From positions 6,191,620 to 6,255,619 of the forward strand of contig NC_091135.1 in assembly GCF_041381155.1 (NCBI RefSeq): DNA of 64,000 bases, given 5' to 3'. Positions 8,900 through 49,928 of the stretch are shown piece by piece. The notes beneath the pieces are model-generated. The model was not told the DNA's origin. It did not search any database and was given only the letters and a program-made list of their open reading frames with translations. The position numbers and the translations under genes were made by a program. Numbering within the stretch: the first letter of the stretch is position 1; every line of letters begins with the position of its first letter. This DNA comes from Argopecten irradians. Its lineage: Eukaryota > Mollusca > Bivalvia > Pectinida > Pectinidae.

Positions 8900-9075
8900 A
8901 TGCTTTTTTGGCTCAGTCGGTAGAGCCATAGATTTCCACGCTGGAGACCCGGGTTCAATTCCTGGTCGGGGCACTCGACAGGAATGGGTATTTTCCCTGT
9001 TCTTCTACACTTGAATGACCAGCTACGGAAGGACATTAACATTGCACATGCACAATACATCGCCCACAGGTCAGC
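8900..9075 (+). mobile_element. tRNA-derived SINE
   Basis: It contains an A-box-like TGGCTCAGTCGGTAGAG at 8909 and a B-box-like GGGTTCAATTCC at 8951, spaced as in an RNA polymerase III promoter. A non-tRNA body follows (CGACAGGAATGGGTATTTTC). It cannot be folded into a complete tRNA, because the acceptor stem is absent. Confidence 0.65.
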
Positions 9076-10323: not shown

Positions 10324-13300
10324 ATGACGGAGAGAAGCCTGTTGGTATCAGACAGAACAAAGAGATATGACATCCCGCTTGGCCATCTAGACTATGGCTA
10401 TATTGAGACATGCCGCGATAGTAAGGAACTGGAGAAGATCCTGGTTATCCTCAGGTAAAGACCTATGCAATGCCGATAATTTTGATACACTAAATATTTA
10501 ATTACTGAATTTACTTCTGATTTGTGCGATGATTATGTATGTGTACTGTACTTACTTTGGATTTTGAAATAGGATATTTTGAACAGAACATTCTTTGATA
10601 CTTGCATTTTATTACTACTTACAGTAAAACAAGGTTATTATAAATAACAAACCTACGAGAAACAAAATTACTTTGTTATAAAAATAGTTTATTATACACA
10701 TATTGTAGATTAATCTTATTGAAATCTCAACAGGGAATGAAAACTACTACAGTATAAACATGAATTTGTTGTAAGCATGTTCGGTATTTACAGATTTACT
10801 GTACAGTATTTGTAATTGTTGAAAATATTTATATATTTATTGGCTGAAAAAAACTCAAGAATCTGATGCCATCGCTACGGAAAAAAATTACTGTTATTCA
10901 AACTACAGATAGGATCTATCTTCTGTATGTTGCTCCTGAATGCTGATCAAGTATATTTGAGTGTTATTGAATTAATATGTTTTCTGTAAATGGATTGAAT
11001 TATTTACATGTTATTGTTTGCAGGAGTGGTGAAGAGGGTACATATCCAGACCTTGAAAAGGCATGTGAAGAAAGACTTGGAAGTTTGAATCCAAAGAGGT
11101 ACAACGTAGTTAAGATAACATAATCTTTGCTATCAAAGGTTATTCAGTATACTATGCTCTCTGAGGATGTCACTGAATACCATTGACTGGTTGATAATAA
11201 TCTTTAAATTACAATAATAGCTTGTTTTGTTTAAGTCTATCTTTTTAAACACTTTTTTTTTTAATTCAAGCTTGCATTTAAACATTTGTATCTGTTACAT
11301 ACTACATTTGAATTCTTGAAAATAAAAGATTTGGATTCTAACATTTGAAATGTTTTATTATTCTGCTGTCGTGTATTGAGACAAGCTGTTTCAAATATTT
11401 CTTTATTTTGCAGTCGTGTATTGAGAAAGGCAGATCCCTTACTAAAACCATCAGATCTTGAGAAGGATGAATGGAATGAAATTGATAAAGGACTGCAGGT
11501 GAGAACAAAGAGTAAAAAAATCCATGATAGAAAATGATTTTATAAAAATTGACAATAGAAAAATATCATATCATGTAAAAATGTTTCCACTTCTTTCCTT
11601 TACAAACTTCTGCCTTTCATTGATTCAATGAGCAGTGCCTGTTGGTTGTGTAGGCATGGCCTTCTAGTCTGTTTTCAGTCTTGTCTAGTCAACTTCTGTA
11701 ACGACCAATAAACCTCTAGTGCTGAGATCCATTATTAGACTTGTTCTATGCTTTAATGAAGTACCATAGATATGTGAAATAAATGACATTGAAATTTGTT
11801 CAGTGTAATCCATATATAATCGGTCAAAAATTTTAACCAACTTCATCTCAACACATCATCCACTATTTCCTAGTTGGGCGTCACTTAAACCTTCAAAGGA
11901 AGTCTCTATAGGTCTTTGATTGGTCAGTTTTTCTCCTTAAATTACCTACAGTTTTACTATGGCATAGTCCAGGGGTGGATATTACGACAGTGATAGTAAC
12001 CACTGGAATATTGAGGATACTCAACACACCAGAGTTACAGAAAACTGATGTACCTGGCTTGCAGCATGCTATTTTAAATGTTATTATTAAAATAGGATTA
12101 CAAGTGAGGAATGCTGGCCTTGTGAGCTGTTTGATAAGCATTTCTTTTAATGATATGGATAATTATGATACTTAAAGCTGTTTGGTTTTGTGTAGAATTG
12201 GAGCTCATCCATGAAGTATAGGGATGACTCAATCAGCTCTCAAAAGATTGTCCCTACAAAAGCTAAGGGGGAGGAGTTTGATGACAGTGACCTTCCTCCA
12301 ATCAGATCCAGTGTAACATCTATAAACGGCACCGCTGTCAATGGAACTGCCGATCAGGTCATATCATGTTTTTTTTTTAAATACAAGAAAATAACAATAT
12401 TTTTGGTGAATTTTCAGCTTTAATGAAAATATTTTTAGAATATAGATTTGTTAATTCAAAGTGAACGAGGTGAAATTAACTGACAGAAATGTGATTACTT
12501 ATAAATACTAATTAACTAATTCAGAATATTAATTAATATTTACTGAATTTCATTTGCTTACAGTCAGATAAAGCAGCAAAAAGTAATAAAAGGGTAAAAC
12601 CAAGAGACTACAAAGAATGGGATAAGTAAGTTTGATACCTTCATCCTCATTTTTAATTCCTTAATTATTAATTCCCCTGTTTTATATATGTAATAATTAG
12701 ATTGACAATATCTATTTTATTCTTACATTCAACTTCCTTACTTTGACCTTTTATGTTCATGTTTCATTACTAATGTAATTTGCTGAATCACGTCATAAAA
12801 ACTAATCGATTTAACATCTTACGATGTCAGTAAGTTATATCTCTTCACTAAAGTACTTGCTGGTAATATATGCATTTATGTTTACATAGAAAGGTCTATG
12901 TTGTATTTTGTTCTTGTCTAATACATGCATCAACATATAATATGTTTTGTTCTCTATGAAAACAGGTTTGATGTGGACAAAGAACTAGAAAAGGTTGAGC
13001 AGGAGGGGGAAAAGAAGAAAGAATATGCATCAAATGCTGCCCCTAATATTGAAAGCCAAATTAACTCTACAGGTTAGTGTAGAGTTAATATGTTACCTGG
13101 TAATATTTGGTTCGATGGTATAACATTGTATTAACAGCCAGGGTTATAAGAACATTCAGTACAAAAGTCATATTGACTAATTCACATACCATATGATAAG
13201 TTTGTGTTTCTCTTGGTGATGAAATGACACTAAAAGATGTTATTATACCTCACATTTATTTAGAATGTTCTGATTGGATTAAACTTGATCACATGACATT

Positions 13301-16300
13301 GATTAAGTTAGATATCTCCCCGTAATCAGGATGTGACGAAAAAAACTGTCAGGGAAATAACCCCTCAGGGAAATAACCCCTTGGAAGCTCCGCATGTGAC
13401 CGGAAGTGGACGTCAACTGCAACGTCAGCCACCAACTATGACAACGCTGTTGCATATTTTTTGCAGTCAGACAAATTTAGCAACGTTGTTGGGAAATATC
13501 TTTTATTATTTTAACTAGAGATTTAGATAGCTTGTTTATGTTGAATATAACAAATCTATGGATTTTTAAAAATTTTGTTCGCTATTATAAAATTTTTATG
13601 TCCCTGTAATTGTATAATATCCTGCGCTAATTCCATTTTTGCAGAAAGATTACAAAGAGTTACGTTCCATCACCACTTGAGATATACTAGTCCTGCACAA
13701 ACGTTTTTGGGTATTATGTGGTTCATGAATTAGTCCCATTACAGTGAGGTATCAGTAATCTAAATAAGAACTTCAACGGAGCGCAATTTTGACAGAAAAT
13801 TAAAATCAAACTTTTGGATCAGCAACGTCTAGTGTATATTGTGCATTTTGTTCAGTAATTAGATATTATCTTAGAAACATATGTGTGGTGGCATGGTGGT
13901 GTAAGCCACAGGTATAGGTTTGGCTCGGTGATTGGGTGCTGTAGATCAGGAATTCAAGGCCCAATAGGGCAGGTGCCTTAAGATTGTCTTCCTTTATCAC
14001 TTCTGTTTCTAGTTTTAAAAAAGGGAATAAAAATTATATACAATCATAGTTTGAGACCGGATATTTCGACTGTCGATAGTGACCAACCTCGGATGAGTCG
14101 AATACCCCGTATTCCTCGAACTATTGACCTGGTCCCCTGCTGTTCGAGTTATAGGGGTTTTACTGTATATGAATAGAGTGATTGGGGTTTTGTCAGAATC
14201 AGAAAACTGCTGATGATAATGATGATATTGACTGCCACTGATATATACATACTGAGTTTGTCCATCCTTACAGGTATGTCTGAGGAAGAGAAGCTGAGGA
14301 AGGCCACCAGAGAAAAAGATAAAGGCAATGAGGTGAGAGTTGATCACAGTTTTCACTCTTGAATCTCCATATCACAAAAATATATACCTATACCTATAAC
14401 TATACACTATAAACTTGAAAATTTATTCGAGAAGAGAAATTATGCTGACTACACGAAGACCATTTTGACACAAAAACTTCATCAATACGTAATATTATGT
14501 TTATGTATGAACATTGTTGATAGCAGTTCAAAGGTATACCAATTGGGAAAATGACACTGTCATGAAATGTTTGTACCTGCTAAATACAAAATTAAGAATT
14601 TATTCATGTTTAGTTGTTTACAGTATTTTGAAGTATTGTAACTATAAGTAGTCTAGCCCAATACCACCCTAAAACTATCAATGCCGTTGACTTGAAAGAG
14701 GCAAAGAAGATATACTATTTGATGTTACAGGCGTACAGATCCGGAGACTATGAGGAGGCCATCCTTTACTATTCCCGTAGTATATCTTTGATTCAGACAG
14801 CTGCCTCCATCAACAACAGGGCTTTAGCATGTAAGTTATGAAAAATATATGTCTAAATTGTTTAATATGATAAATTGTGTAGTGTGTCAAATATTCAGAC
14901 GGCGTCCTCAATCAAAAGATGTTGAGGACTAAATTTGCCTGTTAGTTATAGCAACATCAAAATTGCAGTAAAAGTAAAGTAATAAACTTATTTTTAGAAA
15001 GTCGTGTGTCAGAGAGATAATCCTTGATCTCTACATTCTAAAAGAATGCAACTAACTAATTATGGTCATACTTTTGAAATCAACTTCATTGTTTACATCT
15101 TGGAAGCAACCAAACACTGTATATTCATTTGATAAATCTGTTTCAAATTGATTGGCTTTTATTTAATCATGTATATATGTGTCTAATTAACACAAAACTA
15201 AGTACATATGAAATCATTTATTTTGCCCTTGTGCATGCACAATCTGTAATTCATTCCATATAGGACATAGTGCCATGGAATTTTTTGGGACACAATTAAT
15301 TATTTTCAATATTTTTAGGTCACCTAAGACAAGTCTCAAGTGACCTATTGTAATCACCTTTTGTCCGTCGTCGTCCGTCGTGCGTCGTATGTCCGTAAAC
15401 AATTTACATTTTCGACTTCTTCTCCAAAACTGCTGAAGCAATTTCAATGAAATTTTGCACAAACCTTCTAAGGCATAAGGCCAATCAAAATTGTGAATTA
15501 TATGGTCCCCACCCCCCAGGGAACTATGGGAGGGGCCAAAAGGGGTAAAATTGACTAAAATTTCAAAAATCTTCTTCTCCACTCACAGATGTGATGGAAT
15601 TAAATACTCTTCATAGATAGAAAGGTCATAAGGTCCTTTACAAAAATTGTGAATTATATGACCCTGGGGTCTCAGGTTTCCCCCTGGGGAGGGGGTTAAG
15701 TTTACTATAGTTTATATAGGGAAAACACATTTTTGAGTATTATTTGATCATTTGTAATAGGAAATGAGTCAAATATTGTCAGAATTATCAGTATGAGATT
15801 GCCATTGAATCCTATTAACCAATTTTCCATGACTGACCCCCAGGGGCCTTAGGGGCGGGGTCAAAAGGGGTCAAATAGGCTATATCTTCAAAAATCTTCT
15901 TCTGAAATTCTGGAAATGGTAGAATCACATACTCTTCATAGATGGAAAGGTCTTGAGGTCCTTTACCAAAATTGTGAATTATATGACCCTGGGGTCTCAC
16001 GTTTCCCCCTGGGGAGGGGGTCAAGTTTACTATAGTTTATATAGTGAAAACACATTTATGAGCATTTTTTGCTCAATTTTAATACGAAATGAGTCAAACT
16101 TGTTTAGAATTATAAGCATGAGATAACATTTTAATATCATATCTATATTGGTCCTGGTCAACCCCCTCGGGGCAGAGGGGCGGGGCCAAAATGGGCAAAT
16201 AGGCTAAAACTTTAAAAATCTTCTTCTTAAATACTGGAAATGGTAGAATCAAATACTCTTGATAGATGGACAGGTCTTAAGGTGTTTTATGAAAATTGTG

Positions 16301-19300
16301 AATTATATGACCCTTGGGTCTCAGGTTTCCCCCTAGGGAGGGGGTTAAGTTACTATATATAAGTTTATATATGGAAAACACATTTTTGAGCATTATTTAG
16401 TCATTATAATAGAAAATTAGTCAATTGTAGTCAGAATTATCCCTATGTAATGGCCATTGAATCTTATTACCAAATTTTCCATGACTGATCCCCAGGGGCC
16501 TTAGGGGCGGTCCCAAAACCGGTCAAATAGGCTAAAACTTCAAAAATCTTCTTCTGAAATTCTGGAACTGGTAGAATCAAATACTCTGCAGAGATGGAAA
16601 GGTCTTAAAGTCCTTTACAAAAATTGTGAATAATATGACTTTGGGGTCTCATGTTTCCCCCTGGGGAGGGGGTCAAGTTTACTTTAGTTTATATAGGAAA
16701 AACACATTTATGAACATTATTTGCCTATTTTTCATAGGAAATTAGTCAAACTGGGTTAGAATTATTAGCCTGAAATAGCATTTTAACATCATATCCATAC
16801 TGGTCATGGCTGACCCCCAGGGGCCAGAGGGGCGGAGCCAAAAGGGGTCAAAATGGTAATTTCAAAAATCTTCTTTTTGAATTCACAGATTTGATGGAAC
16901 CAGATACTCTTGATAGATTGGAAGGTCTTAAGGCCCTTTACAAAAATTTGTGAATTTCATGGCCCTGGGATCTCAGATTTTCCCCTAGGGAGGGGGTCAA
17001 ATTTACTATAGTTTATATAGGAAAAACACATTTAGGAACATTATTTGCTTAGTTTTCATAGGAAATTAGTCAATCTGGGTTAGAATTATTAGCCTGAGAT
17101 AGCATTTTAACATCATATCCATATTGGTCCTGGCCGACCCCCAGAGAGGGGTGGGGCCAAAAGGGGTCAAAATGGATAACATTTCAAAAATCTTTCTCCT
17201 GAATTCACAGATTTGATGGAACCAAATAATCTTCATAGATTAAAAATTTATAAAATCACTGACTGACTTCAAGGGCCTGATGGGCCAATATATATTTATA
17301 GTGTTTATATGCATGTCTTTGTTTCATTCTGTGTCTGAACTCAGGTGACCGCTAAGGCCCATGGGCCTCTTGTTATAAAATAAGAAATACAAACTTTTCC
17401 ATGGTTATGATGTAAAGTAAGTAACTTTTGTAACTGAAGAAAAATACTGAATCGTCTGTTCCTGTTTTTCATAGTAAAAAAGATACCATTTGTCAGTAGT
17501 GTAGCATCTATAGCAAAATATGTACTTATATTAAGCTTGTTATAAAACTCAACTGCTTGAACATCTTTTTTGACAAATATTGATTGTGTTTTCTTTTCAC
17601 AAATAGCTTATTATGTGATGTGTCAAATTTATATTATATACAGATCTGAAGATACAGAAGTGGGATAAAGCTCTGTTTGACTGTCGTGTAGTCCTGGACA
17701 TGGAACCGAACAATATCAAAGGTTTGAAAATGCTGAAACTAATGGACATGCTGAAATAAAACAACACCTGCATAGTCTAAAATAACATGACAGCCGAGTA
17801 GTTTGTCATTTTTTCTTAAATTCTGCTAAAGGCAAATCTGCTCTAAGCTTTCTAAACAACTTTTGTTTTGCCTTCAAATGTCGTAGCTGTTTTGTCTTGG
17901 ATTTCTTAATTCACCATATCTGTTATCAAACAGCTGCTACTTAGTGGTATGGGTTCCAAAACTTTCTATGAAAATTGAAAAGAAGATCTAATGTGTATAG
18001 TGTAGCATTCATGTTATTTGACAAATCCATGTTTTATTATATTATTATTGTTATTTATTGTATTAAAAGTTATAAATAAAACAAACAAAAACAAAAACAA
18101 AAACAAATGCTGGTTATTTTTAGGGACATGAAAATGATTGACATGATTCCTTCCGTTTTAGCATTACTTCGGAGAGGATCTGCTTACAAAGGAAAGAAGG
18201 ATTATGAGAAGGCTCGCGCTGACTTCCAACAGGCACTGGACCTAGAGCCTGCCAATAAAAGGGCAGAGGTAAGGATTTGTGAAATAAACTTTATTTACTT
18301 TACATCAATTCTGAAACATGTTATAAATCTTATACAGATCACTTTTGATGGCCCGGATGTAATCGGGCGAGGGGCCATGGAATGGGGAATAACCACTAAA
18401 GTGAAACTGAAAGATGAGTGACTATACCATTACACTACCCAATCACTCAAATAGTAGAGGCTATTAGAACATATGAATAATGAAAGAAAATGATTAAGTT
18501 AAAAAAAACTGGAGGAGCAAATTTATGAAATGTTATTCTCTGATATAACAGAATTGACAGAAACAGTACAGTAAAATGTGTTTATATCGCACTACTGGGG
18601 ACCAATAAAATCACTTTGTTAAAAGCATAGTTCGTTAAACATATATTAGAATATATTTAGGAACCTTGGGGGAAATAAAAACGTTTTAACCAAATTTGTT
18701 GCAAAGTTTGTTATAAATGTCTTTTACTGTATATGGTATTCGTCTTGATTGACACCTTTTTGCTGTTTTCTTTTGTGATGATAATCATTGTTTTTATCTA
18801 CCTGTTTCATTAGGAGTTACTGGAGGAACTGAGTGCAATGGATAAAGAAAAGGCAGAAGAAAAAAGAAAAAGAAAGGAAAAGGGACGGAGAATGGTGATT
18901 GAGGAAGTGGAAGGAGATGAAGAAGAAGAGAAAGATGAAACAGCAGACATGTCTCCAGACCAGCCCCAAATGAATGGACATGCATCTGTTGAAGAAGTGA
19001 GCAAAAGCTCATCTGAATCAGAAGTACAAGACGGAGGTGATCAAGTTTTAAATGTTGAAAGCAGCAAAGTGACAGATTCTGTGATAGAGGAGAAGGGAGA
19101 TAACTTGGGTGATGTGACTACAGAGTGTGACAGACTGAAGTCACCTATTGTTTCAGATATGACTGAGGAGGAACAAAGTGAGAAAGTCACAAGTGGTTCT
19201 GATCAGGCAGCTAATGAAAAGTGTGAAAAAGTTATTGACTCCGATGTTGGGTCGAACCAACAGAGTGATGAACGGACTAGTCCGGGTGATTCAGAAGTCA

Positions 19301-22300
19301 CCAAACAAAGTATTCAGTCGTCAGGGGACAATAAAGCTGCCACTGAAAGTAAAAGTACAGCAAACAGAGACAAAGACAATGAGCCAAGTGCTGGTGAGGA
19401 AGTGACTGAAAAGCTGCCAGAGAGGCCAGTCCTTATACAGACTGAACTGCCATCTCGTGTGGCCCAGCTGCGTGAATCTGGAAATAATCTCTTCAGAAGT
19501 GGGCAGTATGGCGATGCTTTGGAAAAATACAAATCTGCCATTGAAATATTAGACAAAGGTGGGTCGTTCATTTCTGAATTCATTCATACAGTTTCCACAT
19601 TTCTTAAGCAATAATTACTCAGATTGTCTTGTAGATAGACATTATATGAATCATTGCTTTCCTATTGAATTTTCATAAGAAGTGAATAAATATGAGTTTA
19701 ATTTTGTGTGGAGAAAACTTCTCACTCTGCTCTGCAATACAAATTCACAGGAAGACATATTTGCACATTTGTAAATTTCTAACAGAAATAAGCTTTGCAG
19801 GTTTGCTTACTTATCATTCTTTCCATTTTATTTGCAGGTATTTAATTTGCAGAAAATAATTTGAGTTTGAATAAAGCAAAATTTTAATTAATTTCAGCAA
19901 ATTAAAGCAACTAAAAGCATGAAATGGTATCTATATTTCAATCCACTTTTCTCTCCTTGACCATTTTCTTATCAACTTGTTTTACCCTGAATTCGACAGA
20001 GAAGTCTGATCAAGTGGTGAACCTGTCCTTACTGTACAGTAACCGTGCGGCCTGTGAGCTGAAGGTGGGTAACTGCTCGGCTTGTATAAAGGACTGCAGC
20101 AAGGCGTTGGATCTAGTCCCTCACTCCATCAAACCACTGCTACGTCGGGGCAGTGCCTACGAGACCACGGAGAGGTAAATATATCAACAACGCACAGCCA
20201 AATCAATACAGCTGTGTTATCCATTGTGTTGCTTATCTCATTCAAACATTATTTTACTGATGTTTTTCTTATATTTGTATGAAAAATAGCTATTCTTTTT
20301 TTTTTTTTATTAGATATAGTTTATAAATACTTGTATTATAGTTTACAATTTCAATCCAACTATGTTTGCCCTGCAGGTAGGGCGTTAGAATTGTACCTGC
20401 TGCCCCTATTGCATGATCGTAAAAGGCGACTAAATTTAGGATCTTATCTTTTCTCTTCTGCCTAACTGACTTTATCTTTCCTAATGCCTCCCTTGGCACT
20501 GCCTCACTTTTGGCCTTGAGTTGAGCGTTCGCCCCTGTGAGGAAGGCTCTGGGTTCTGTCCCCTGGCCGAGACACACCAAAGTCTATAAAAGTGGTAGTT
20601 TCTGCTCCTGCTTAGCGTTCAGCATACAGGGAGTGGGACGACTGGTTCGCCCGTTGTCAGTATAATGTGACCGGGTGGGGTGTGTTGCTTGGTGTCTTCG
20701 GCGGCATGCTTCATTGATATAGCACTATAAAAAGGGCAACAGTTCCACTATACAAGAAGACTCAACAGGAACATACCGCAGTCTCCCAGTACACTCACCT
20801 CGCACAACATACACGCAACACACCGCATGCATGGGAGGCCGTCCTTACATGACCATAGCTGTTGATAGGACGTTAATAAATCAAACAAACAAACAAAATC
20901 CAACTATGTACTGTTGAATCTTGTTATATCAGAATTGGAACAAACTGTGGTAAGACTTCATGTGATTTAAGTATGCAAATAATTAAGAAAAAACAACACT
21001 TTGATCTAATAGGGACTTGATGATGTGAATTGAACAAATTCATTTTACTAGGTCCAATTACGTATAAGAATGTTCATCCTCGATACTCCAGGGGTTCCGT
21101 TCACTTACGATCTCTACACCCCTGGACTATCTCATAGTGAAATTGAAAGCAGCTCAGCAGAAAACATTTGACCAATCACAGGCCAGCAAATATTTCCTTT
21201 GAAGACTACAGAGAGAGCGACGCCTAACATCAAAGCCACATAGTCAACCACAGTGTACTGTTATACGGCTCTTTTGATGTACATCAAACGACTGAATTAC
21301 CTGTTGTTCTGTTGCCTCCAGTTTTACTATGAGATAGTCCAGGGGTGAAGAGATCGTAAGTGATCGGAACCCCTGGAGTATTGGGGATGAAGAATGTTAG
21401 GCTATAAATAATACAAAAAACAACATGTCTATTGTCTAGGTGATTGATCCATATTATTTGTTTATAAACAATGTATAGAGTAAGGATTGGGATTATTATA
21501 CATGTATTGATAAATCAACCTCTGTTGCCTAGGTACCGGGATGCGTATGTAGACTACAGACATGTTCTAACTATAGATAGATCTGTAGAATCAGCTTATG
21601 CTGGTTCATCAAGGTAAGTCAGTTCTTAAAAATTCAGATTTTGATCATATTCTTCCAGTCATTTCCTTTCTATATGTATGAACTATTTATCTGGTTGTAT
21701 TATTCAAATCCCATATTGGGCAGTTGCCAGGTACTATTGCTGTCCGTTGGTTTTTCTCTGGGTACTCCGTCTTTCTCCTACTCATAAACCTGGCATGTTC
21801 TTAGATTACCCTGACTGTTAATGGGATGTTTAACAAGTCAAACCAATGTATAATTTATTGAAAACATCTTTGAACTTTCAATTTCTGTTTTTCAATATGA
21901 TGTGATGACATCCAAGTTAATGGTTTAACATGTGAACAATTTCAAGATATTTAGAACATTATTTAAAACAAAGATAAATAAGATTGGTGTTTATCTCCTT
22001 ATTTTGGAGGTTGCCAGGTACTGACTGCTGGTCGGTGGTTTTTTCTCTGGTTACTCCGGCTTTCCTCCACCAACAAACCTGGCTTTCCTCCACCAACAAA
22101 CCTGGCACGTCCTTTAATAGACTAAAAAAATATGCCTATTCTAACAATGGTTAGATATCTCTCTTACTACTTTATAATTTATCCTTGAGTAAATCTTAGT
22201 GTTTTTGCAGTAGGGTAGATGTTTGTTAGAGTTTGAAAAATAAATATTGTTATTTCAGATGTCAGACTAGTTTAAGTCAAACAGATGGTAATAGATGGAG

Positions 22301-25300
22301 GGAGAAGTTACCTCCCCTGAAGTCAGTTTCTCCATGGGAGATTCCATTGATAGTCGATACATTTGGGAACCCAGTCACCAGACCTGTGGTTACCCCTACA
22401 GCTCCCAAAGTTCCCATGACAACAGCCAATCAGGAGGCAGCAGCAAAGTCAGAGAGTATGACACCTCCTGCACCAATTTCCTCAAAACCATCACCGGAGA
22501 AGGAGCTTTCAGAGGAACAGAAATTTGAAAATGCAAAGTCAGAAGGCAATAAATGTGTTCAGAAGGTAAAATTTCAAATTCCATCTTCGCATATTAGAGT
22601 TATCTGCCCTTGAGGGAAAGTACTGACTTTAGATTTATGAACGGAAAAAAAACATTGATATATCGGAAAAATATTACCTTACACTCACAAACACCAGTTG
22701 TCAAATCAATTCCTATGTATAAAATCAGATCATTCTGTGCAAATACAAAATTCACCAATAGCACAGTCATACTCAAGTGACATTCCAATGGTAGTTCAAA
22801 GTAAGGTCGTATAAGACAGGTAGTCACTTAAGCCAGGGTCAATAATGAAAATGATTACGAAATTATTTAAACAATTAATGATTAAAAATATTAGGGTCCC
22901 AATATAATTAAGGTCGCAGAAGACAGGAAGTTGCTGGATACAGGGGGTCATTTAGCTGCAATATTGTAGCACTAAAGACTTTTTGACAGAAAATGGTGTC
23001 GTCTTCAGAGCTACAATTGGTGCCTATTACTTCTAATGGAGCAAAGTAATGGTTATGCAAACCATTATTTAAACGTTTGCATGCATTTTATCGTACTTGT
23101 TTTATATAGCTTACCTACTAGGCCATAAAAATGAACCATATCAAATATCAAATTTTCAGCGAGACTTTTTTTTACATATACACATATTAAGGCGTTTCTG
23201 AAGAAAATTTATACAGTAAGTCTACAATGTACGAATTTGACGTTTTGTGAGCGGTGTGGTAGATATTAAGAATGGTACTTATGTTTGTTTTTGACAAAAA
23301 TAATATATAAATGCTTGTATATGCACAAAATAATTGGAAACCTACAAAAAGTATAGAAAATTGTGCCCGAGTGATTTTCGGAGGAACTGCTCCGCTAGGA
23401 CACATAGGGACCAATTTGTACATATATTCATTCTAGGGGTCGTTAAGACAGGTTTGACTGTACTTTGAATTGAATGTTAATTCCTGGTTCTTACATGTAT
23501 GATATATCGACTATTTTGCTGTTGTAGGGCGATTTTGTAAAGGCCATTGACAGCTATTCAGAATGTGTAACACTGATGCCAGACAGAGCAGTCGGGTACA
23601 CCAACAGGGCGCTGTGTTATCTCCGTCGTAATCAGGTTAGTCTGTGGTCTGTTATTCCATTCATAACAAACCCTATAGATCACCTTGATTCCTATTTTTA
23701 ATTTCTTGTATTACCGTTGATGACTTTTCTCCACACCCTCTGTGTGCCAAAAATATTTTAAGTCCATGATATCCATGCTATCTCCACCATCTCCGCTATT
23801 TCCGCACAAAAAAAGTTCTAAGTTCAATATTTCCACAAGATCTCCATAAGAAAAAAAAGCTTAGTCCAAATTCTCCATAATCTCCACAAATTTTCCGCGG
23901 AATTGTGTCCTTTCTCCGTAGAAATTCCGCGGAGAACTTGCTACATCTAATTAATTCTGAAATGTTTTCCGTAGAGTTTCCACAGAATCTGAAAGGTTTG
24001 AAAGGTTACAAGATTGTGAAGCCATATGGGATGTTGTTAGATTCTCCTTGAAACAGAGTGAGAATAAGGATATGTATTAAAATCAGATTAATCGTCTTTG
24101 TCAATTTGGTTGTAAAGTGTAATTTTTCTAAACCAGATGTCACCAGGACCAACATATTTGACAGTTTAGACAGGTTTCCGGATTATATATGTTTTAATTG
24201 CCATAAATTAAGGAGGAAATGCAATACAATTAAGCTGGAATGCACAAGGATCCTGATTAGGCAAGGACCGGTTTAGACAACTTATACTGTACATGTATAG
24301 GCAGGTTAACTGAATGTGAAGGTCGTTAAATTACAGAGACTACATATACTATTCTTAATATTGATAAAATCTATATTTTCCTCCAGCCTTCCAGTGCCGA
24401 GGCTGACTGTAACATGACCACATATACTATTCTTAAATGTTGATAAAATCTATATTTTCCTCCAGCCTTCCAGTGCCGAGGCTGACTGTAACATGACCAC
24501 ATATACTATTCTTAAATGTTGATAAAATCTGTATTTTCCTCCAGCCTTCCAGTGCCGAGGCTGACTGTAACAAGACCACATATACTATTCTTAAATGTTG
24601 ATAAAATCTGTATTTTCCTCCAGCCTTCCAGTGCCGAGGCTGACTGTAACATGACCACATATACTATTCTTAAATGTTGATAAAATCTATATTTTCCTCC
24701 AGCCTTCCAGTGCCGAGGCTGACTGTAACATGACCACATATACTATTCTTAATATTGATAAAATCTGTATTTTCCTCCAGCCTTCCAGTGCCGAGGCTGA
24801 CTGTAACAAGGCATTAGGGATGGAAGCTGACAACATTAAAGCCTTGTTCAGACGTAGTCAGGCGCGTAAGTTGATGAAGAAGTACAAAGAGAGTCTGGAG
24901 GACCTCACACATCTCCTCAAAATTGACCCCAAAAACGCTGCGGCAAAGAAAGAGATGACTGTGGTGAAAAATTACTATAGAGAGGTAAATAACGTCTTTG
25001 GATACTAGCTGTCATACATTTTTTTTATATTTCTATAAATAAGGAATGTATAAACATTTGTTAAGTGATTATGGAATGGTTTCATTCATCATAGTTCGGT
25101 TTTGCAAGTTTATTTCTATATTATAATATTTTTTTTAGGATTTATGTATATTGGAGAAGATAGAGATAACTTTTATAGTAGCTTACTGAATCATAACTGA
25201 ATAAAATTGTTATATATACAGGTAAACTAAATATTTCCTTAATTCTTCAGTAAACAACAAATTACTGGTTATTTGTAATTATCAGGAACTTCAAAAGATG

Positions 25301-28300
25301 AAAGACAATTTGGGTTCATCAGCAAACACGTCCAAAAGTGATGGTAAACAGAGGAAAAGAATGGTGATACAGGAGACGGAATCTGACGAGGAGGAGGAGG
25401 AAGAGAGTTCAAAGGTCAAGGCCGCTGATAAGTCTAGTCCAAACGTTTCAAATAAAACACAAACTGCTTCGGCGAAGAAATCAGAGACAAAATCAGAACA
25501 AAAGAAACCAGAGATGGAAAAGAAAGGAAAGAAGATGGTAATCGAGGAGATCGAGACATCTAACGAGGGAGGGGGCAAACACAAAGGTACATTGATTAAT
25601 TGGTTTACTGTTACATTGACCCATCACACACAATTAATTATCATAATTAGCTACCTTATGATCTGAATATCCTCAATCAATAAATTGGCAAGGACTTGAT
25701 AGAATCTTTCTGTCACTAGATTACCTTTATTTATTGGAATTGAACCATCATAATACATCTTTTTCTGAGACCAGCTCAATGTGCGCTCTTCTTAGAAAAA
25801 AAGTTATCTCAGAAGATCTTCCAGCTCATAGATGGAAGAGCTTCCAGATGTAGAAGAGCTTCAAATTGAGTGAAGACAGGAGCATCCATGTCTTACAGGA
25901 TTCTCTAGTTCCTATTACAGTAAAATTCTATCATAATGTATGAAGAATTGCGCATTTATTCTTAATACAGATCACACCAGCATCTTCTCAAATTTTAATT
26001 CTCATTTTTTTTTTCACAGCTCCAGAAAAGTCAAAGACATCACAGAAGAAGCCAAGCCAAAGTAAGAACATCAAGTCGACCAGTACAGGACTACCTGTAG
26101 TGCCACCCACCGCTCCGAAACTCGACAAAGCTACACCGTACGAGTTCATACAGGCATGGAATTCACTGAAGAAGGTACAAGATCTCCAGCCCTATGCCGA
26201 TTTACTTAAGCAGATAACACCAGCAGATCTACCTAAAGGTATGAATATATTCCGAATTTGCATATTACAGAGTTATCTGCACTTGTGGGTAGGTATTGAT
26301 TGTGACGTCATGTGTTTGCGAGCGTAACGTCATATGTTTCGGAGAAAACGACATGAATTGTGCTCACAAAATAATGACGTAACAATCGATACCTACCCGC
26401 AAGGGAGCTAACTCTGTAATATGCAACTGGGAAGATTGTTTTATATATAAATGTATCATTTCTAGGTTTTCCGCTCAGATTTTGTTATTTTTTTGTCTCA
26501 AAAGTGATAATTGTATACAATATACTTTCAATGTTTTTCACAGGCATGAGGTGAAATGTCTCTTGAACTCATAAACTGTGACTATTCTTTTTTTGTGGGG
26601 ATCTTATTTTTTTCCAATTACATTTATAGGCAAGATGTTAATTGGCTTAATCCATTTTTCTGAGTGTATTCTTATGTAAATATATTACATTAAGAAATAT
26701 CAAATGTTTATAACCAACACACTTACATGATTAAAACATAGTATATATCATTCCCCATCATGGTTCCTATAAGATGTCTATAATGTGTGTATAACAAACT
26801 ATACTTATAAACAAAATGATTACATTGGTCCCCAGAAGTTCTTTTAGTACTACCTTGTTTTATATATAAAAAACAATATGTACGAAGTGATTTGGTTTTT
26901 CAACTGAGTATACTTTGTTATACAAATACCCTCTTGTATACTTGTATAAATAACCAAGATTACAGCATTGATGCTAATTTTAACATTTATTTATGATTTC
27001 TTAGTTATGTAGAAAATGAATTGAATATTTAAGACATTTATTTTCTGTTTTCCAGTGATCAGTAACAAACTTGATGGTCCAATGCTCACCACCATTGTTC
27101 AGTGTCTGGGTTCAAAATTCACAGAAACAGGTGAGCATTAATTTAATATCTAAATCATGTTTCAGGTGAGTACAAGTTTGTTAAGATGGTTAATTTTAGA
27201 ATCAGGTAAACCACTTGGTATTGTTTTCTGCCTAATGCTTTCAGGTATATTAATTATATTTTAAAGATGCTCCACCGCTGACAAATGGTATTTTTTCACT
27301 ATTAAAAACAGGAGCAGACGATTTAGTATTTTTCTTCAGTTACAAAAGTTACTTACTTTACACCATTACCACCATTGAAAAGTTTGAGCTCCTAATTTTA
27401 CTTCAAGTTAAAAATATGAAAAATAATTAATTGCATCCCGAAAAAAATCCGTACCACTATATCCTATATGAAATGAACTACTGAATGCGCATGTACCAAA
27501 GGCAAAATAAATTATTTTATATTATTTTTTGTGTTAATTAGACTATTATATACACGATTAAACACTAATTATTGTTCAAATGATGAATATCATTTTTGGT
27601 CTGTCGGCAGTGGAGCATCTTTAAATGAATTATTCAAAAATAAATTATCACAAAAAAATATATCAGTTCACCTTGTATGGTATAAAAAGCTATTTTGTTT
27701 CAATGTGTAACACATTTTTTAGCTTGAGTCACCAGTAATGAATATTTATTTTTAGAAATATTGGTAACTCGTCTTTGATTACAATGTCTTTTACAGGTGA
27801 GCTAGACACCGCGTTCAGGATATTGACAAATTTATCCAAGGTGGATAGATTCCAGACCATATCCATGTTCATGTCAGCAAAAGAAAAGTCAGGTCAGTAA
27901 GCTTTTTATATGAGTTGCTTTAATAATTTGAACAGTTTTAAAGTCTTTATATGGCCTAGCATTAGAACTTCTCTTTCTCATCCATTTTGTGAAAATAGAG
28001 TTCATATTGGAAGAATTCGTAATAGAAGCAAGCTGATAGAAATGTGTAAAAACTCTAAAAGTTCTGAGTATTTGCATTTAAATATATTCTGCATTTGCGT
28101 ATTACAGAATTATCTGCACTTGCGGCTAGGTATTGATTGTGACGTCATATGTTTGTGAGCGTCACGTCAAAACTTTTGGAGGAAATGATGTGAATTGCGC
28201 TCACAAAATAATGGCGTCATAATGGATACGTACTGGCAAGGGAACTAACTCTGTAATCTGGTTCAAGATTGATCTGTACTTGTGTTTGCTTATCCTTCCA

Positions 28301-30196: not shown

Positions 30197-33100
30197 CTGC
30201 TAGGAAGTATTTTGTTTGCTATTAAGAAGACAGGCAGCTCCATCTTGTGTGTGGTCTGGTCGTAATCTATGGCTGGTCACTGCAAAAAAAAAACAAGGAG
30301 GCCCATGGCCTTTAACCGGTCAACGGAGTTAGAATATATAATGAAACAAATTAAAGACAGATTAATCACGATATGCTGGGTCCTTGAAGTTTGGTCAGGG
30401 TTTTATAGAATTTCACTTTTTTGACTTTGAAGAGTGATTTGCTTCCATCTAAACGCTGAGAACCTTAGAGGTATTTTTTGAAATTTTTAATTAAACTTTT
30501 GACCCTTTATTGTTCCTGGCCACTTCTGCTGGTGCACCCCAAGGTCCTCCGAGGACGGAATTATGAATGTTAAAATGCTATATCATAGGCTAATAATTCT
30601 TATTCCAAGTTTGACTATTTCCTACGAATAGTGCGGCCAGATAACTGATCTCCAAATATTTCTTTTCCTAATATAAAACCTAATGTAACACATGACCACC
30701 TCTTCGGAGAGTGAACGTTTAGAACCCCAAGGTGCCAATATCACACAATTTTTATAAAAAAACCTTAAGAACCATATCCATCATAAAACTTGATTTGATT
30801 CCACTATATCCACCAAATTTTAGTAGATTTCTTGCGAAGTTTTAAGCCTATGTTGGAGAGCTCCTTTTTTTTGGGCCACGCCCTCTCAGTGCTCCCAGGG
30901 GCATCGGTTTCCAGGACCAATGTGGGATATGATATTAAAATGCTAACTCAAGGCTATGATAATTATATCTAACACATTTTGATTCATTGTCTCTAAGAAA
31001 ATTTGAGCAAGTACTATTCTCCATTAATGTGTATTTCATTTAAAAACTATAAGTAAACGTTGACCCCTCCTCCTCAATGGGAAAACGCGTAGACCTCTAG
31101 GGTCATATAATTCCACAATTTTTGTTAAAGACCTTAATGACCTTTTCTTATTTTATGAAAAGTATTATTGAATTTCTACCTATTTCCAGAGATTTTCAGA
31201 AAGAAGATTCTTTGAAAATTTTAGCCTATTTGAATTTGCACCCTTTTTTAAGCCCCACCCCCATCAGCCACCAGTGTTGAGTCGGCCAGGACCATATGTG
31301 ATATGATTAGTACAAATTGCTATCTCAGGCCAAGATAATTCTAATAACCAAGTTTTGACAAACTCTTTACCTATGACAAATTGAGCAAAAGCCATGCTAC
31401 ATAAATTGTGTTTGTCCCCTATATAAACTATAAGTAAACTTGACCCCTCCCCCAGGGGAAACGCGGAGACCCCAGGGTCATCATAATTCACAAATTGTCT
31501 TGTAAAGACCTTAGCGACCTTTCTATATTAAGAAAAGTATTTGATTCTACCGTTTTCCAGAATTTCAGAAGAAGATTTTGAAGTTTTAGCCTATTTGTGA
31601 CCCCTTTGTACCCCACCCCTAAAGTCCCTGGGGTCGGCCAGGACCAAGTGTGGATATGATATGACATAAAATGCTTATCTCAGGCTAATAATTCTAACCA
31701 AGTTTTGAGTCGTTTCCAATGAAAATTGAGCTAAAACATGCTCATAAAATATGTGTTTTCCCTATATAAACTATAGTAAACTTGGACCCCTCTCCCCAGG
31801 GGCAAACGCGAGACGCCCAGGGTTCATATAATTCACAATTTTTGTAAAGGACCTTATGACCTTTCTATTTAAGAAAAGTATTTGATTCTAACCATGTTCC
31901 AGAATTACAGAAGAAGATTTTTGAAGTTTTAGCCTATTTTGTCCCCCTTTTGACCCCAGCCCCTAAAGTCCCTGGGGGTCAGTCCATAGAAAATTTGTTA
32001 ATAGAGATTAAAATGGCCATGCTCATACTGATAATTCTGACCAAACATTTGACTCATTTCCTATTACAAAGACCAAATAATCCGCAAAAATGTGTTTTTT
32101 CCCACATAAAAACTATGTGTAAACTTAACCCCCTCCCCAGGGGAAACTAGAAAACCATGGTCATATAATTCACAATTTTTTGTAAAGGACCTTAAGACCT
32201 TTCTATCTTGAAGAGTATTTTGATTCTACCACATCTGTGGAGTAGAGAAGAAGATTTTGATGAAATTTTACTCAATTTTACCCCTTTTGGCCCCTCCCAC
32301 AGCCCCCTGTGGGTGGTGGGGACCATATAAATCACAATTTTGATTGGCCTTATGCCTAAGAAGCTTTGTGCAAAATTTCATTGAAATTGCTTCAGCAGTT
32401 TTGGAGAAGAAGACAAAAATGTAAATTGTTTACGGACATACGACGGATAGAATACTTCGTCTCAGGTGACCTAATAAAAACAAAACAGTTTTATATTAGG
32501 CATCTATAGAACTTGCCTGCAAAATTCAGGCAAGTAAACTTATTTCTTCGTAATTCTGCAACAACTTTGCGAAACAAGCATGTAAAATTCAGCATGTAAA
32601 CAGCATGTATACAGTATGTAAACAGCATGTAAAAACTCTCCACCATATACACCAATAATTTGTATTTTCCTGGCTTAGATGGATCCATATATACCAGGTA
32701 TGAAGTTCTGGAGTCTCACGTCATGGTAATGGACATCCTTTAATCCAGGGGTTATGGTTATATTTATGTCAGAGCAAAACTGAAGGAAGTTCAGGAGAGA
32801 AAAAATGGCCAATCACAGGCCTGCAGAGACAGTGATGCCCAACTTCAAAACCCCAGTCAACCACAGTATACCGTTATTCAATTATTTTGATATACATCAA
32901 AGGACTAAACTACCTATCTCATCACACACTGCCTTCAGTTTTGCTATGAAAAATACCAGAAGTGGATGTAACGATTGTGATAGTAACCCCTAGATTATCA
33001 TGAATGGGTAATGATGAGAGATCTAGCCAATGTTATTGCATCAGAAGTCAAAATGAAGCTTACAATGACCTTGTTATGACACAACACACTGATAACTGGA

Positions 33101-40237: not shown

Positions 40238-42788
40238 TATTCTACAGTACACATAAACAATAGCTAACGTGACGCTACCCAAATTGGAACACTTTTTGAT
40301 GATATTTGTGAAAAATTTCTAACGTGTGCATAAATCTAGATTTTTCTCTTAACTTTCCACAAATAGATGCCTTTAGTTTTCATTTCATGATTTGTTTACT
40401 TGTCAGCAGTGCATATATTTTGAAATAGAGAGCTTGAAGCATGCCCGGTCTAACTAGCCCCATGTGTAACAGGAGCGTAGTCACGTTCGTCTGTCGCTAT
40501 GAATACTAGTAGGTAGTATTTAGTGTCACTACTATGTGTACGTTGCACCCAGGTTCAATGACGTTCAACCCGGGGTTCCGTAGGAATATAGCGTGGTCAG
40601 AGAGTAAACAACACATGATTGTGATACAGGGTATTTTATTGCACCCGCAGATGCTTAAATATCAACAATCAACATAACAAGTGTAAAGTTAACAACAACA
40701 AAGTATAACGTTACACATGGACATAGAAGGACCCTACCGCTGGTTTCAACTTACAGAACTATATACTACACAACTACTAGCCTAATTTATAAAGGGACAC
40801 AGATCCCCCAACCCCACAGACACCAATAAAGAGACAGACACGAGAGAAGGAGAGCAGAGAATGAGCCTACCAGCAGGTCAGTGCTAATGTAGACTGAAGT
40901 TACACGAATGAATGAATGAAGAGTTTTACGTACCGTGACGCTAAATATAACGTTTTGGGGCACGAGTAATAGTTACACGGACTACAGCGGGTTTATATAG
41001 CGATTACACAATGGGACAAATTTAGCCAATAAGATACCTTGTTACAAATTGAATGAAAGTAAAGGAAGTAAAGGAAGTAACTTTCCCCACCACTCTTTGT
41101 AGAATCGGGGGTCCCCCAGGGCTCTGTTCTCGGCCCAAGTTTGTTTTTATATTACATCAATGATATGCCACTTAACCTCTCATCTTCAGTTAGATTGTTC
41201 GCCGATGACACTATCTCATACATTGTACATAACCATTACATCGAAAAAAGATTTAGAAACACTCCAAAATGATCTAGATAAACTAGCTGACTGGGAAAAA
41301 AGGTGGAAAATGGAATTCCACCCCCAGAAATGTAATGTTCTTTCGATTACCAAGACTAAACATTCAATCAAACATAATTATCATCTTCATGGTCACTGTT
41401 TGGAACACACTGATAAGGCAAAATATCTGGGCGTAACAATCCAACACGACTTCAAATGGGACTCCCACATCAGCAACATCACATGCACAGCCAATAAGAC
41501 CCTTGGCTTTATTAGACGAAATCTCAAAATTAATTCAAAAAAGATTAAAGAACAAGCATACAAATCCTTAGTACGTCCCACACTTGAATATGCCTGTACA
41601 GTGTGGGACCCATACCAGAAGGGAGACATTAATAAGCTAGAAATGGTCCAACGCAGAGCTGCTCGATATGTCACTAACAGATTCCATAACACCTCAAGCG
41701 TTAGTGACATGCTTGAACACCTAGAGTGGCCTAGCTTATCGGCTAGAAGGAAAAACGCACGGCTTACTATGCTTTTCAAAATCACTCACGGCATAGTAGC
41801 TATTAATAAAGACCAATACTTGACCTCACAGTTACGCCCTACCAGACACTCCCATACACTTGCATACCAAATACATTACTGTAGAACTGATTCTCGCAAA
41901 CACTCCTTCTTTCCCCGCACTATCCAAGACTGGAACTCTCTTCCGCAAGATCTTGTAATCTCAAAGTCACTTGACTCCTTCAAAACTCGTCTTTCATCTC
42001 TAAATTAATTATTTTCTTCTCTTCCCCTGTTCATAGCCACACCTTCAACAATATCGACATGATCTTCAATATGATGAAGTAGGTCGATTATTTGGTAGAT
42101 GTAGATGTAGATGTAACTAAATTGAGATACCCGGATGACAACAGGAAACCAGCGGCAATAAACAATACGGAAATATAACACCAGCAATTAGGCATTACAA
42201 AACAGATGACATAATATTATTTATATTAAACAAAACCACTTTCACACACAACCGGCTGGTCATACAATTTACAAATATCAATCCTTTCACACATGTTTCA
42301 GCAGGTTCGAGTCCCCAAAATGTACTCCAACTTAGAGATATAGCACGACGAGACACTTTTGGAACATTACGTCGTGTCTAACGTCAGCAAAATAACGTCC
42401 GATAAAAAAACGGCTGACCAGTCGACTCTCATTTTATGGGAGTACACAAAATGGAACACCTCCTAAATATAGTTTGATTAAAAAATGTATATACATCATA
42501 AAAAATGTTGGAATTCGCTTAAGGAAAGTTTAAACATTACTTTCGCTTTTAAATACAGATAATAAGCAACTGGAAAGAAAATTACATCATAAAATTGTCA
42601 AAGTTACTATTCAGCACCTTATTTTTTGTTCAGGGCAGTTACTGGTAGTTTATATTGAAAAAGGAAAATTCTGTTTCACATATTTTAAAAGTGTTCCATG
42701 CATTTTGGGTAGCGTCACGTTATGTTTCTAACGATACTTACATTGTTCCTATGTGTACTTAGCTTCTGTTTATGTGTACTGTAGAATA
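40238..42788. mobile_element. 2.55-kb terminal-inverted-repeat element, host of a LINE insertion
   Basis: The left end reads TATTCTACAGTACACATAAA, then AACGTGACGCTACCCAAA and GGAACACTTTT. The right end reads the reverse complement of both blocks, with about 38 extra bases between them. The LINE tail at 41083-42112 lies inside. Without it about 1.5 kb remains, with no transposase recognised, so the element is probably non-autonomous. The superfamily could not be assigned from the ends. Confidence 0.75.
41083..42112 (+). mobile_element. 5'-truncated non-LTR retrotransposon (LINE), reverse-transcriptase C-terminal part
   Basis: It begins in the RT palm ([20 protein letters not shown], then LFADDT, the catalytic box) near 41100. 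One frameshift near 41235 separates this from the long frame 41160-42008, which covers the RT thumb and the tail typical of jockey/CR1-like LINEs: WKMEFHPQKCN, YLGVTI, LVRPTLEYACTVWDP, MVQRRAARYV and WNSLPQDLV. The 3' end is a (TAGATG)n tail at about 42096-42112. GTAACT occurs on both sides (41077-41082 and 42113-42118), possibly a short target duplication. The element is inactive because it is 5' truncated. Confidence 0.9.
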
Positions 42789-43482
42789 TCCTGTAGCACT
42801 CCTGGATGAAGGACTTTGGCCTTCATTCAAAGTCACAGTTGTCAAAAAAGATAAAATCTTTAAACAATTTGTCAATAACTAAGAGGCCTAGAGACCTGCT
42901 ATTTATATATATACTACCAACTAAACTGCAAATGTTTAGGTGCTAAAACTAGATGGGATAGAATTTTTATCTTAGAGAGCTTTCGACCCTTCTGGTGTAT
43001 AAAAGTACTATGAAGAATAAGATTTTTACCATTTACACATAAGTTATGCAGTTGTAAAAAAAAAAAAAATGCAGTTGTATTTCAAAACAAAAATGATGAT
43101 GATATTTTGCATTCATTACACACACACATGTACATTGTATCGCTATGCCTCTGTAATGATTTGAAGCAAAGTTAACCTTTATAGACATACCAATCCAGAA
43201 AATTAAATTCTAGTGACCGTTATCCATTGCTGTAAAAACATATCCTGCATCTATTCATGCATGTACAAAGTGTATTGTCGTACATACATGTATTACACTG
43301 GTACATATATACCTGTTTCATTATATTAGCATCTAATTAATTAAAACAATTTACTTTTCTGTTTCAGTTCTTCTGAAAGTACCTGGGTTTAGCTATAAGA
43401 CATGCTGAATGTGTGATTTCACAATGTACAATTTAGCCTTAATGCCCCATGGATTCTAATTCTATTTTGTAATTAACTGTTT

Positions 43483-46400
43483 ATGATAGATATGGCTTCA
43501 GGCACCGGATTCCTAACATATGAACATGAACGTTTTAATCCGGTCACTGAAACATCAGCTTATCAAACATCAAATAGACCAACACCATCACCTACCATCT
43601 CCGTTTCTAATGACAGTACAGGTATTGATTTGTTTCTACCAAGTAGAATCAGTGATGATGACTTTAGTACTCATAAATCTATTCATAATCACTATGAAGA
43701 TTCAAGTCGCAACTCCCCGATTCAGGAACACACAAGCTTGCAATCGGATGACCTTGAAACTGACTCATGTTTTGACCTTCAACAAGAAAATACAAATATG
43801 GATGACCTTGAGACTGATGGTCCTAATTATTATGACCCACCTGAGCTACTCTCGTTACAAGTTTCAATGTCTTCTGGTCAGGAAAATGCGTCCATTTCCA
43901 GCATTCCAGTATCGTCAAGCAATGACAACTATCATTTGTGTATGGATTCAAATTATGGTAAGAAATCTGATTGTGATGTAGAAACAGATACTGATTATGT
44001 TCAGCAGGATAAAAGTGAAGAAACAACTGTGAAAGCATTGGGACCTGATGTGTTGTATGATCATTGGCCACAGGAAAATGGATGTGCCTTCCGAACCAAG
44101 GCTGTGGACGTGGACAGACGACGTCATACGAAAAAAATGTAAGTCATTTGTATGATAAAATCATCAATATTAATGTCGTGTCTAAATTTTGTACTTTTTA
44201 GATACTATCAAAGATGGATAAAGTATAATTACGTTATATTTTGTATGTCAAAAATTTGCAATACTTCCCATAATTCGAAAGTATAGTAATTCAGTTATAA
44301 GAATACAGTATTTGACCCAATAAGCAACCAATATAATTGATAAAAATAAGAGAGTATGTAATTAAGACCCAATCTTGGAGGTCGGATTATCCTTTTTCAT
44401 CATTATTGCAAAAAGAAAGACATAATTGATTTGCAAATGAAACCAAATAAAGAAACCATTGTTTTTTCATATTTTCAATCTGCATTTAATTCGAGATATA
44501 GTTAAATTGAGACTTCAAATAACAGAGCAAAACATGTACAGTATTGGGTCGAATGCGGTACGCTGTATATGCATTAATTTATTTACCCATTTTTAGTACA
44601 TTTCATAGTATTTGATATCCCCACTTTATTCTTGATATTCATTTTATACATGTTATTAAAAAATTAAGATACCATTGGAATCTTGTTTTTCTAAGATTTG
44701 AATGAAATTTGTCTTTACTTCCAGGGGTAATGAAAAGATATCTAAAACGTATGAAGATTTCGTTTCCTTGGAATACAGACATGACCATTTGTACAGAGGG
44801 CGGTGTTTAATTGTCAGTAATTCAGAATTTCGAGACAAATATAATCGACCAAGAAGATCTGGATCATTGAGAGATGCAAACACCCTGAAGAAACAAATAA
44901 AGGCCATGGGGTTTCATCCTATCAGAACCAAAGACGGATCAGAAGAAATGATTCATCAGAATTTGTCACGAAACGATCTGCTGGAGATATTGTCTGATGG
45001 TTTGTATACTGCTATAGAGATAACAGGGGTAGGGATGGGGGTGCTTATTATGTCTTTTATTTACCAGGTACATATACTCTAATAATTGAGGGACCGCTGT
45101 GGCCGAGTGGTTAAGATAACCCGACATATTACCACAAGCCCTTCACCTCTGGGATGCAGGTTCGAATCCCATGTGGGGCAGTTGCCAGGTACTGACCGCT
45201 GGGTTTGTGATTTTTTTCTCCAGGTATACTCTGGCTTTCCTTCACCAAAAAACCTGGTACGTCTGTTCATGACCCTGGTTGTTAATAGGACATTAAAGTA
45301 ATAGAACCAAGCCAATAATTGATTCAGATTGTGTTTTGAGGTGGATTGTAATGTTGATGTTTATACATGTATTTACATTCACCAGCTGCCTCTTCTACTT
45401 ACACCATATAAACTAACCAAGGCAAAGTGAAATCTATGGGAGTATAACTGACACCCAATGTGACCATTATGACGTCACTAATTAATGTTGACATGCATGG
45501 TTGAGTCAACTGATCACTGTCAAAAGAGTTGTTCCATCTTGTAGATGGATCCTCGTTGCTAAACGGTTTTCTTGGTTTAACTAAACAATGCAAAATGCAA
45601 AAAACCCTAAAATGAGTGAAAAAGGTAAATATAAGTATTAAACTATCTTCCTATGGCATCTCCATGTATGGTCTATATAGTTGCCAGAGCTTTGCAGACA
45701 ATCATTTCATTAGCGCGCATTATGAAGATTGTCTGCAAAGCTCTGGCGTCTATATAGACCATAGATGCCATGCATAGGAAGACAGTTTAATACTTAAATA
45801 TACAGCAGGCCCTACATACCCTGTATAACATACATAACAGTTTCATTAGGTAGATACAAGCTACTGCTGTGAATATGTTACCAAAGACTTTTTGTTTACA
45901 CACATCAATAATGAATAAAAAATGAACTAGTCGAAACGGCCAGGAATCGCCAACATTGACGGTCTGGCTGATCACAAAAAAAGAAGAAAGTTGTACTTAG
46001 AATATATGCAGCTAAACTAGATTTTCAATTTTGATTTTCAGTCACAGATTCGTCGCTGAATGACCACTCGGACTATGATTGCTTTATGTGTGTGATCCTC
46101 TCCTATGGAATGCCCGGTGCTGTAGTTTGTCCTGGCGAGACAGAGGATGCCTTCCTGGAGACGACCTCCATTTTAGAATATTTCTCATCTGGAAAATGTC
46201 CGTCCCTAGCAATGAAACCAAAACTTTTCTTCATACAGGTATGTGAAAATACTCACTACCAGCATTTAATGTCAAAAGTTTATGAGATTGATTGACAAGT
46301 TATCATTTCTGTTCCGTATTATCAGTCAGTTACAGTGTGACATGTTGTGAATTGATTTAAATGTGACTTCCTGAAACAGTAATAATAGCTGATATCAGGG

Positions 46401-48965: not shown

Positions 48966-49449
48966 AATACTTATAATTAATTTTATACTCTATTTGATAA
49001 AATGAAGTACATTTTGTATGTTTAAATGTAACATTATAGTGGTTTTTCAAGGGATTCTTTTTTCCGAATCAATACGCAACGTCAATGTCGCTATTGTGAC
49101 GTCACGATAATGTCGGGGTTTCGCGCCATTCTCGGATTTTTTTATTCATACAAAAAAAATATTGGCCAATCAGAAAGCCAGATTTTGTATGAAAACAAAG
49201 AAAAATTAATTATAACACACTGAAGAATTTTTAGACGACACACTGATTGGCTTACCATAGAGGTCATGCTGAGGTGACCCCGAACAGAGAGTTGTTAGAT
49301 CTTGTATTTCAGTGTATCATTGAGCATCATACGAACAGAAGAATAACAAGTTTAATTTTAATTAGATTGTAGTAATCTTTAATAAAGGGGAAAGTTATCT
49401 AATAAATAAGGTTAATGCTACATAGAAATGTTAAAGTTACCTAAACAGG

Positions 49450-49928
49450 TTAAAGTTACTCAGAGATAAACAGAATTTACTTGGAATAAAAGTTAAAGTT
49501 ACTCAGAGATAAACAGAAGTTACTTGGTATAAAAGTTGAAGTTACTCAGAGATAAACAGAAGTTACTTGGTATAAAAGTTGAAGTTACTCAGAGATAAAC
49601 AGAAGTTACTTGGTATAAAAGTTGAAGTTCCTCAGAGATAAACAGAAGTTACTTGGTATAAAAGTTGAAGTTACTCAGAGATAAACAGAAGTTACTTGGT
49701 ATAAAAGTTGAAGTTACTCAGAGATAAACAGAAGTTACTTGGTATAAAAGTTGAAGTTACACAGAGATAAACAGAAGTTACTTGGTATAAAAGTTGAAGT
49801 TACTCAGAGATAAACAGAAGTTACTTGGTATAAAAGTTGAAGTTACACAGAGATAAACAGAAGTTACTTGGTATAAAAGTTGAAGTTACTCAGAGATAAA
49901 CAGAAGTTACTTGGTATAAAAGTTGAAG
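49450..49928 (+). repeat. 43-bp tandem array, ~11 units
   Basis: Units read GTTACTCAGAGATAAACAGA then AGTTACTTGGTATAAAAGTT, nearly identical. A more degenerate region to about 50400 keeps GGTTAAAGTTGCTAAGCAAC-type words and looks like an older outgrowth of the same theme. Confidence 0.95.

Follow-up and report, generated by a model that had tools for sequence, protein, structure and literature searches.

Minisatellites that extend over intron-exon boundaries, termed mirages, are described in amphioxus for Adh3, globin genes, TnC and PGBD5 (available sections of PMC3087553 and PMC3902484). The mirage of the globin gene BflGb6 combines the 3' end of an intron with the 5' part of exon 2, is found in haplotypes with six and with three units, and shows an 'exclusion of cluster boundaries' from homogenisation (PMC3087553, same sections). 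RT-PCR suggests that BflGb6 is spliced regularly (PMC3087553), and the available part of PMC3902484, which adds PGBD5, cites the mirages of Adh and TnC as being without aberrant mRNAs. The choice between near-identical acceptors has been studied in other systems. Reed and Maniatis, as told in the available part of PMC9225289, found that when two 3' sites compete the upstream one is chosen. According to the same part, human exons with both flanking introns longer than 250 nt follow exon definition, in which preference goes to the sites nearest each other over the exon, and both classes of human 3' sites prefer the upstream site, a preference that long introns reduce and do not abolish (PMC9225289, section 9).

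The array described here lies in SPAG1 of Argopecten irradians, within a window of 64,000 nt, the whole stretch of DNA that was analysed. At positions 24338-24809 a 78/79-bp unit, in which an intron end is followed by the opening 28 bases of a TPR exon, stands six times in tandem (Table 1). The tandem repeats include an intron-exon boundary, which is fixed by homology, and the array is apparently a further mirage of the published type, outside cephalochordates. Like BflGb6, it spans the 3' end of the intron and the 5' part of the exon; it differs from the amphioxus mirages in its gene, in its non-lancelet genome and in unit size, 78/79 nt as against 150-160 in BflGb6, 157 in BflGb9, 10-72 in Adh3, and 60 and 108 in PGBD5 (values from the available sections of the amphioxus papers). 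A literature search, beyond whose reach many subscription papers lie, returned no junction-spanning array of such build in a mollusc. As in the duplicated sites of Reed and Maniatis and in the human alternative pairs (available part of PMC9225289), near-identical acceptors face one donor, but the SPAG1 array is natural, six-fold and carries 28 exon bases per copy. Very probably it is an ordinary mirage minisatellite grown inside SPAG1, with splicing mainly at 24781 and with the upstream acceptors as little-used decoys. The evidence for this reading, and for others, is discussed below.

Table 1. Features of the SPAG1 array and its surroundings (positions in the window)
Feature	Positions	Strand	Remarks
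Upstream SPAG1 exon (TPR)	23528-23635	+	donor CAG/GTTAGT after 23635
Intron carrying the array at its 3' end	23636-24780	+	phase 0, 1145 nt
Dispersed repeat in intron	24112-24291		kin at many places in the genome; ends 46 nt before the array
Copy 1	24338-24415	+	acceptor before 24387; 78 nt, starting with GACT and lacking the inserted A
Copy 2	24416-24494	+	79 nt; acceptor before 24466
Copy 3	24495-24573	+	79 nt; acceptor before 24545, with the 23-mer core of the real site
Copy 4	24574-24652	+	79 nt; acceptor before 24624, with the 23-mer core of the real site
Copy 5	24653-24731	+	79 nt; acceptor before 24703; its use would add 26 in-frame residues
Copy 6	24732-24809	+	78 nt; real acceptor, before 24781, and first bases of the real exon
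SPAG1 TPR exon	24781-24984	+	204 nt, phase 0-0, donor GAG/GTAAAT

The gene had been named SPAG1 in an earlier reading made from the sequence alone, and homology bears this out. The two exons on either side of the array intron encode 104 residues of TPR sequence, for which SPAG1 (9hb4_G, E 4.4e-41) is the best match in the PDB. The alignment runs without a gap over the junction at 24781 (residues 4-98 against 640-734), which speaks for 24781 as the acceptor used to make the normal protein. When joined, six exons spanning 20002-25585 give one open frame. Three N-terminal exons at 10324-11498 can likewise be joined in a single frame; neither join covers exons lying between 11.5 and 20 kb. In the 3' part, 27757-27897 matches RPAP3_C (PF13877) at 29.6 bits (cut-off 23). 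SPAG1 membership was judged by two features, both of which are present: TPR arrays closest to those of SPAG1 and a terminal RPAP3_C domain. A Pfam search at an E value of 1 returned no family for the N-terminal 97 residues or for the exon at 26022-26174. A second AG lies 9 nt into the TPR exon, at 24790, in frame and in every copy, and a form three residues shorter is possible. As an acceptor this AG was rejected: it would shorten the TPR by three residues, and the gap-free SPAG1 alignment lends it no support.

Tandem Repeats Finder (TRF) reports the array at 24338-24808, with a period of 79, 6.0 copies, 97% matches and a score of 879. Among 200 dinucleotide shuffles of 23636-25285 (1650 bases), 57 gave a row scoring at least 30, and the highest score was 55. 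The sequence-only reading, which had counted six copies of a unit carrying a polypyrimidine tract, an AG and nine exon codons, is thus confirmed in number, position and composition, the identical exon part being 28 bases. Successive acceptors are spaced by 79, 79, 79, 79 and 78 nt. The six copies do not differ between intron base -13 and exon base 28 (nine codons and one base), and only five columns vary: -47, -29 (an indel), -27, -14 and exon base 29. Columns -29 and -27 divide the edge copies, 1 and 6, from the core copies, 2-5; the core copies have in common an inserted A and a change of A to G, neither of which occurs at the edges. Column -47 sets apart copy 1 alone, while -14 and exon base 29 are mosaic across the copies, the pattern that exchange or conversion would give. 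The division of edge from core seen in BflGb6 is therefore found at two of the five SPAG1 columns and is absent at the other three. The exon part of the copies was also considered for signs of purifying selection, an idea that was set aside: its first 28 bases are invariant, but with five variable columns overall this proves nothing.

The state of the two edge copies suggests that the founding unit was probably 78 nt long and open in frame. A 78-nt unit is open in two of the three frames, that of the gene included, so the first duplication would have been tolerable even if the extra acceptor was used. In the founding event, a 78-nt stretch comprising the last 49 intron bases and the first 28-29 bases of the coding exon was probably tandemly duplicated; the array junction is consistent with a 2-nt AG microhomology, by itself weak evidence. 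Growth to six copies would most likely have proceeded via unequal exchange, slippage or conversion, the inner copies presumably acquiring their common +1 insertion later than the founding. A search of the intron upstream of the array for older, degenerate copies found none (best local score 22, against a mean of 18.6 and a maximum of 29 in 200 shuffles). The dispersed repeat in the same intron has its kin elsewhere: of 520 candidates 40 matches were scored, itself included, and the top others are 80% identical.

Tandem arrays are frequent in this genome. We sampled 20 stretches of 10 kb at round coordinates, and arrays with 3 or more copies of a period of 40-200 bp and at least 90% matches occupied 20,926 of the 200,000 bp, with 9 of the 20 stretches containing them; by the same criteria the window holds 2,908 bp in 64,000. 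Given this frequency, an array lying over a splice junction is not surprising. The genome is set apart from that of a lancelet by its GC content of 34-36%, by a long FMRFamide precursor and by what appear to be 16 chromosomes, as suggested by the sizes of C16 (34.5 Mb) and C17 (1.07 Mb); such a number fits some scallops. The SPAG1 array indicates that junction-spanning minisatellites are probably no peculiarity of lancelets.

The motif yUnAy marks branch points and was used to spot candidates. Every copy carries a polypyrimidine tract and one or more yUnAy-like motifs: TTGAT at -23 is present in all six, and TTAAT at -29 in copies 1 and 6 only. The A inserted in copies 2-5 has two effects, breaking the frame and removing one of two candidate branch points. 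Over the 23-base acceptor core, copies 3 and 4 are identical to the real site and copies 1, 2 and 5 differ from it at -14 only. In the sequence-only reading the upstream acceptors looked as good as the real one; near-identical as the cores are, this is to be corrected for the branch region of copies 2-5, which are without the TTAAT candidate. A ranking of the acceptors by a home-made matrix, built from 14 sites of SPAG1 (the ambiguous 12196, 13330 and 14657 being excluded), was dropped: the array acceptors, at 2.3-3.1, fall inside a range that runs from -2.2 up to 9.5, and they are outscored by 8 of the 79 AGs in 23660-24984, so the matrix does not discriminate.

Reading frames from the donor at 23635 separate the six acceptors. 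The first four lead to a TGA after 18 codons, the fifth keeps the frame open and adds 78 nt, or 26 residues, and the sixth gives the standard exon; the frame computation agrees with the sequence-only reading, which had foreseen the stops and had derived the 26 residues from the last interval of 78 bp. The stops precede the end of the exon by 541, 462, 383 and 304 nt, distances at which decay of the mRNAs from acceptors 1-4 would be expected. Donors were scored with a matrix of 14 hand-picked SPAG1 donors, leave-one-out, and the best donor-like GT in 24337-24860 reaches 0.6 as against 5.1-10.9 for authentic SPAG1 donors. The unit having no credible donor, extension of the exon is the only likely aberrant product, and the use of single units as micro-exons was rejected.

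The introns around the TPR exon measure 751-1145 nt upstream and 301 nt downstream. Given this setting of exon definition and the example of amphioxus, 24781 is likely to be the main acceptor of SPAG1; the choice would be favoured by definition of the exon from the donor at 24984 and by the fuller branch region of copy 6. Products of acceptors 1-4 would enter nonsense-mediated decay, the upstream decoys being used little or at a low level. In the human data long introns reduce the upstream preference without removing it, so upstream sites may be used at a low level here.

A stronger form of such use would be active competition, the interpretation favoured by the sequence-only reading, in which the five upstream acceptors are used appreciably, the number of copies tunes SPAG1 through nonsense-mediated decay and copy 5 supplies a protein with 26 extra residues. 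The cores, identical to the real site or one base off, the tract and candidate branch motif in every copy, and the upstream choice reported for human alternative pairs and by Reed and Maniatis (available part of PMC9225289) all speak for it. So does one alignment of the extended exon, in which the insert coincides with a TPR helix, at the cost of a 3-residue gap (domain 35.6 bits, mostly from the downstream part), although when the extended exon was searched alone its best SPAG1 alignment began at residue 28, past the insert. We nevertheless regard competition on this scale as unlikely, since amphioxus mirages with intact signals are reported to splice regularly (available sections of PMC3087553 and PMC3902484), the flanking introns exceed 250 nt and belong to the class with reduced upstream preference (PMC9225289, same part), and copies 2-5 are short of one candidate branch point.

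A more far-reaching proposal builds on the same signals. The array might act as a length-variable splicing rheostat, in which more copies would yield more unproductive SPAG1 mRNA, the acceptor of copy 5 would place a 26-residue insert in the last TPR domain, and the insertion of copies 2-5 would have spread by blunting the decoys through loss of a branch point. We hold this to be distinctly doubtful. If true, no earlier mirage in the literature searched would have shown a functional effect or come from outside the cephalochordates. Apart from this proposal, arrays of this type, if common in minisatellite-rich genomes, would contribute to variable splicing and to errors in gene models in a way so far overlooked, and the SPAG1 array offers a clean natural test of how the spliceosome chooses among six near-identical acceptors.

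That the array is an artefact of assembly, with a single unit stretched to six or two haplotypes stitched together, is very improbable. Assemblies do err at tandem arrays, and one of the amphioxus mirages had been put together wrongly in a draft (available sections of PMC3087553). The copies, however, vary at five columns in combinations that simple stuttering does not yield, and the contig is 73 Mb long. A 505-bp query matches one place in the 846-Mb genome, with no second haplotype copy seen, and a protein search of the genome gave five matches, namely the two exons of the window and three weak ones elsewhere. A second gene copy or second haplotype was rejected on the basis of the single DNA match and of the strong protein matches being confined to the window exons. 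The copy number of six could still conceivably have been influenced by an assembly or haplotype effect. Intron gain under way, with inner units becoming small exons or new introns, is extremely improbable: the array shares with the Rogers model a tandem duplication of coding sequence close to splice signals, and the route proposed in the amphioxus globin paper begins with such arrays (available sections of PMC3087553), but a new intron needs a donor, and in contrast to that model the SPAG1 unit has none that is credible by the scores given above.

Several observations concern other parts of the window and genome. At 51127-53079 a tandem array has a 75-bp unit in 19.6 copies by one row, with longer rows at higher-order periods of 123 and 225 bp, and parts of it are open in several frames. 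Another, at 49449-49932, has a 43-bp unit in 11.3 copies with 97% matches, and the arrays at 15528-17240 and 31044-32228, of about 325 and 343 bp, have consensus units that resemble reverse complements of one family. The open frame of 301 codons at 41103-42005 resembles, by eye, the end of a non-LTR reverse transcriptase. A caspase-like gene lies at 43477-45079; its segment 44702-44970 scores 21.1 bits against Peptidase_C14, just below the cut-off of 21.4. An Rfam tRNA match of 35.3 bits at 8902-8973, for which ARAGORN (bacterial code) made no call, is perhaps a tRNA-derived SINE. Elsewhere, at C1:53753306-53753770, two matches to an AAA-domain exon cover the same model positions 306 bp apart, perhaps a local exon duplication. 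A search of the assembly for COX1 gave no match, so that the mitochondrion is apparently missing from it. A second neuropeptide pattern had 0 matches, which says little because the pattern lacked the alanine codon of APGWamide. An FMRFamide pattern matches the genome 15 times, as against one match for the reversed control pattern, and 12 of the 15 fall within a single 0.8-kb stretch on C8; the stretch translates to a repetitive FMRFamide precursor.
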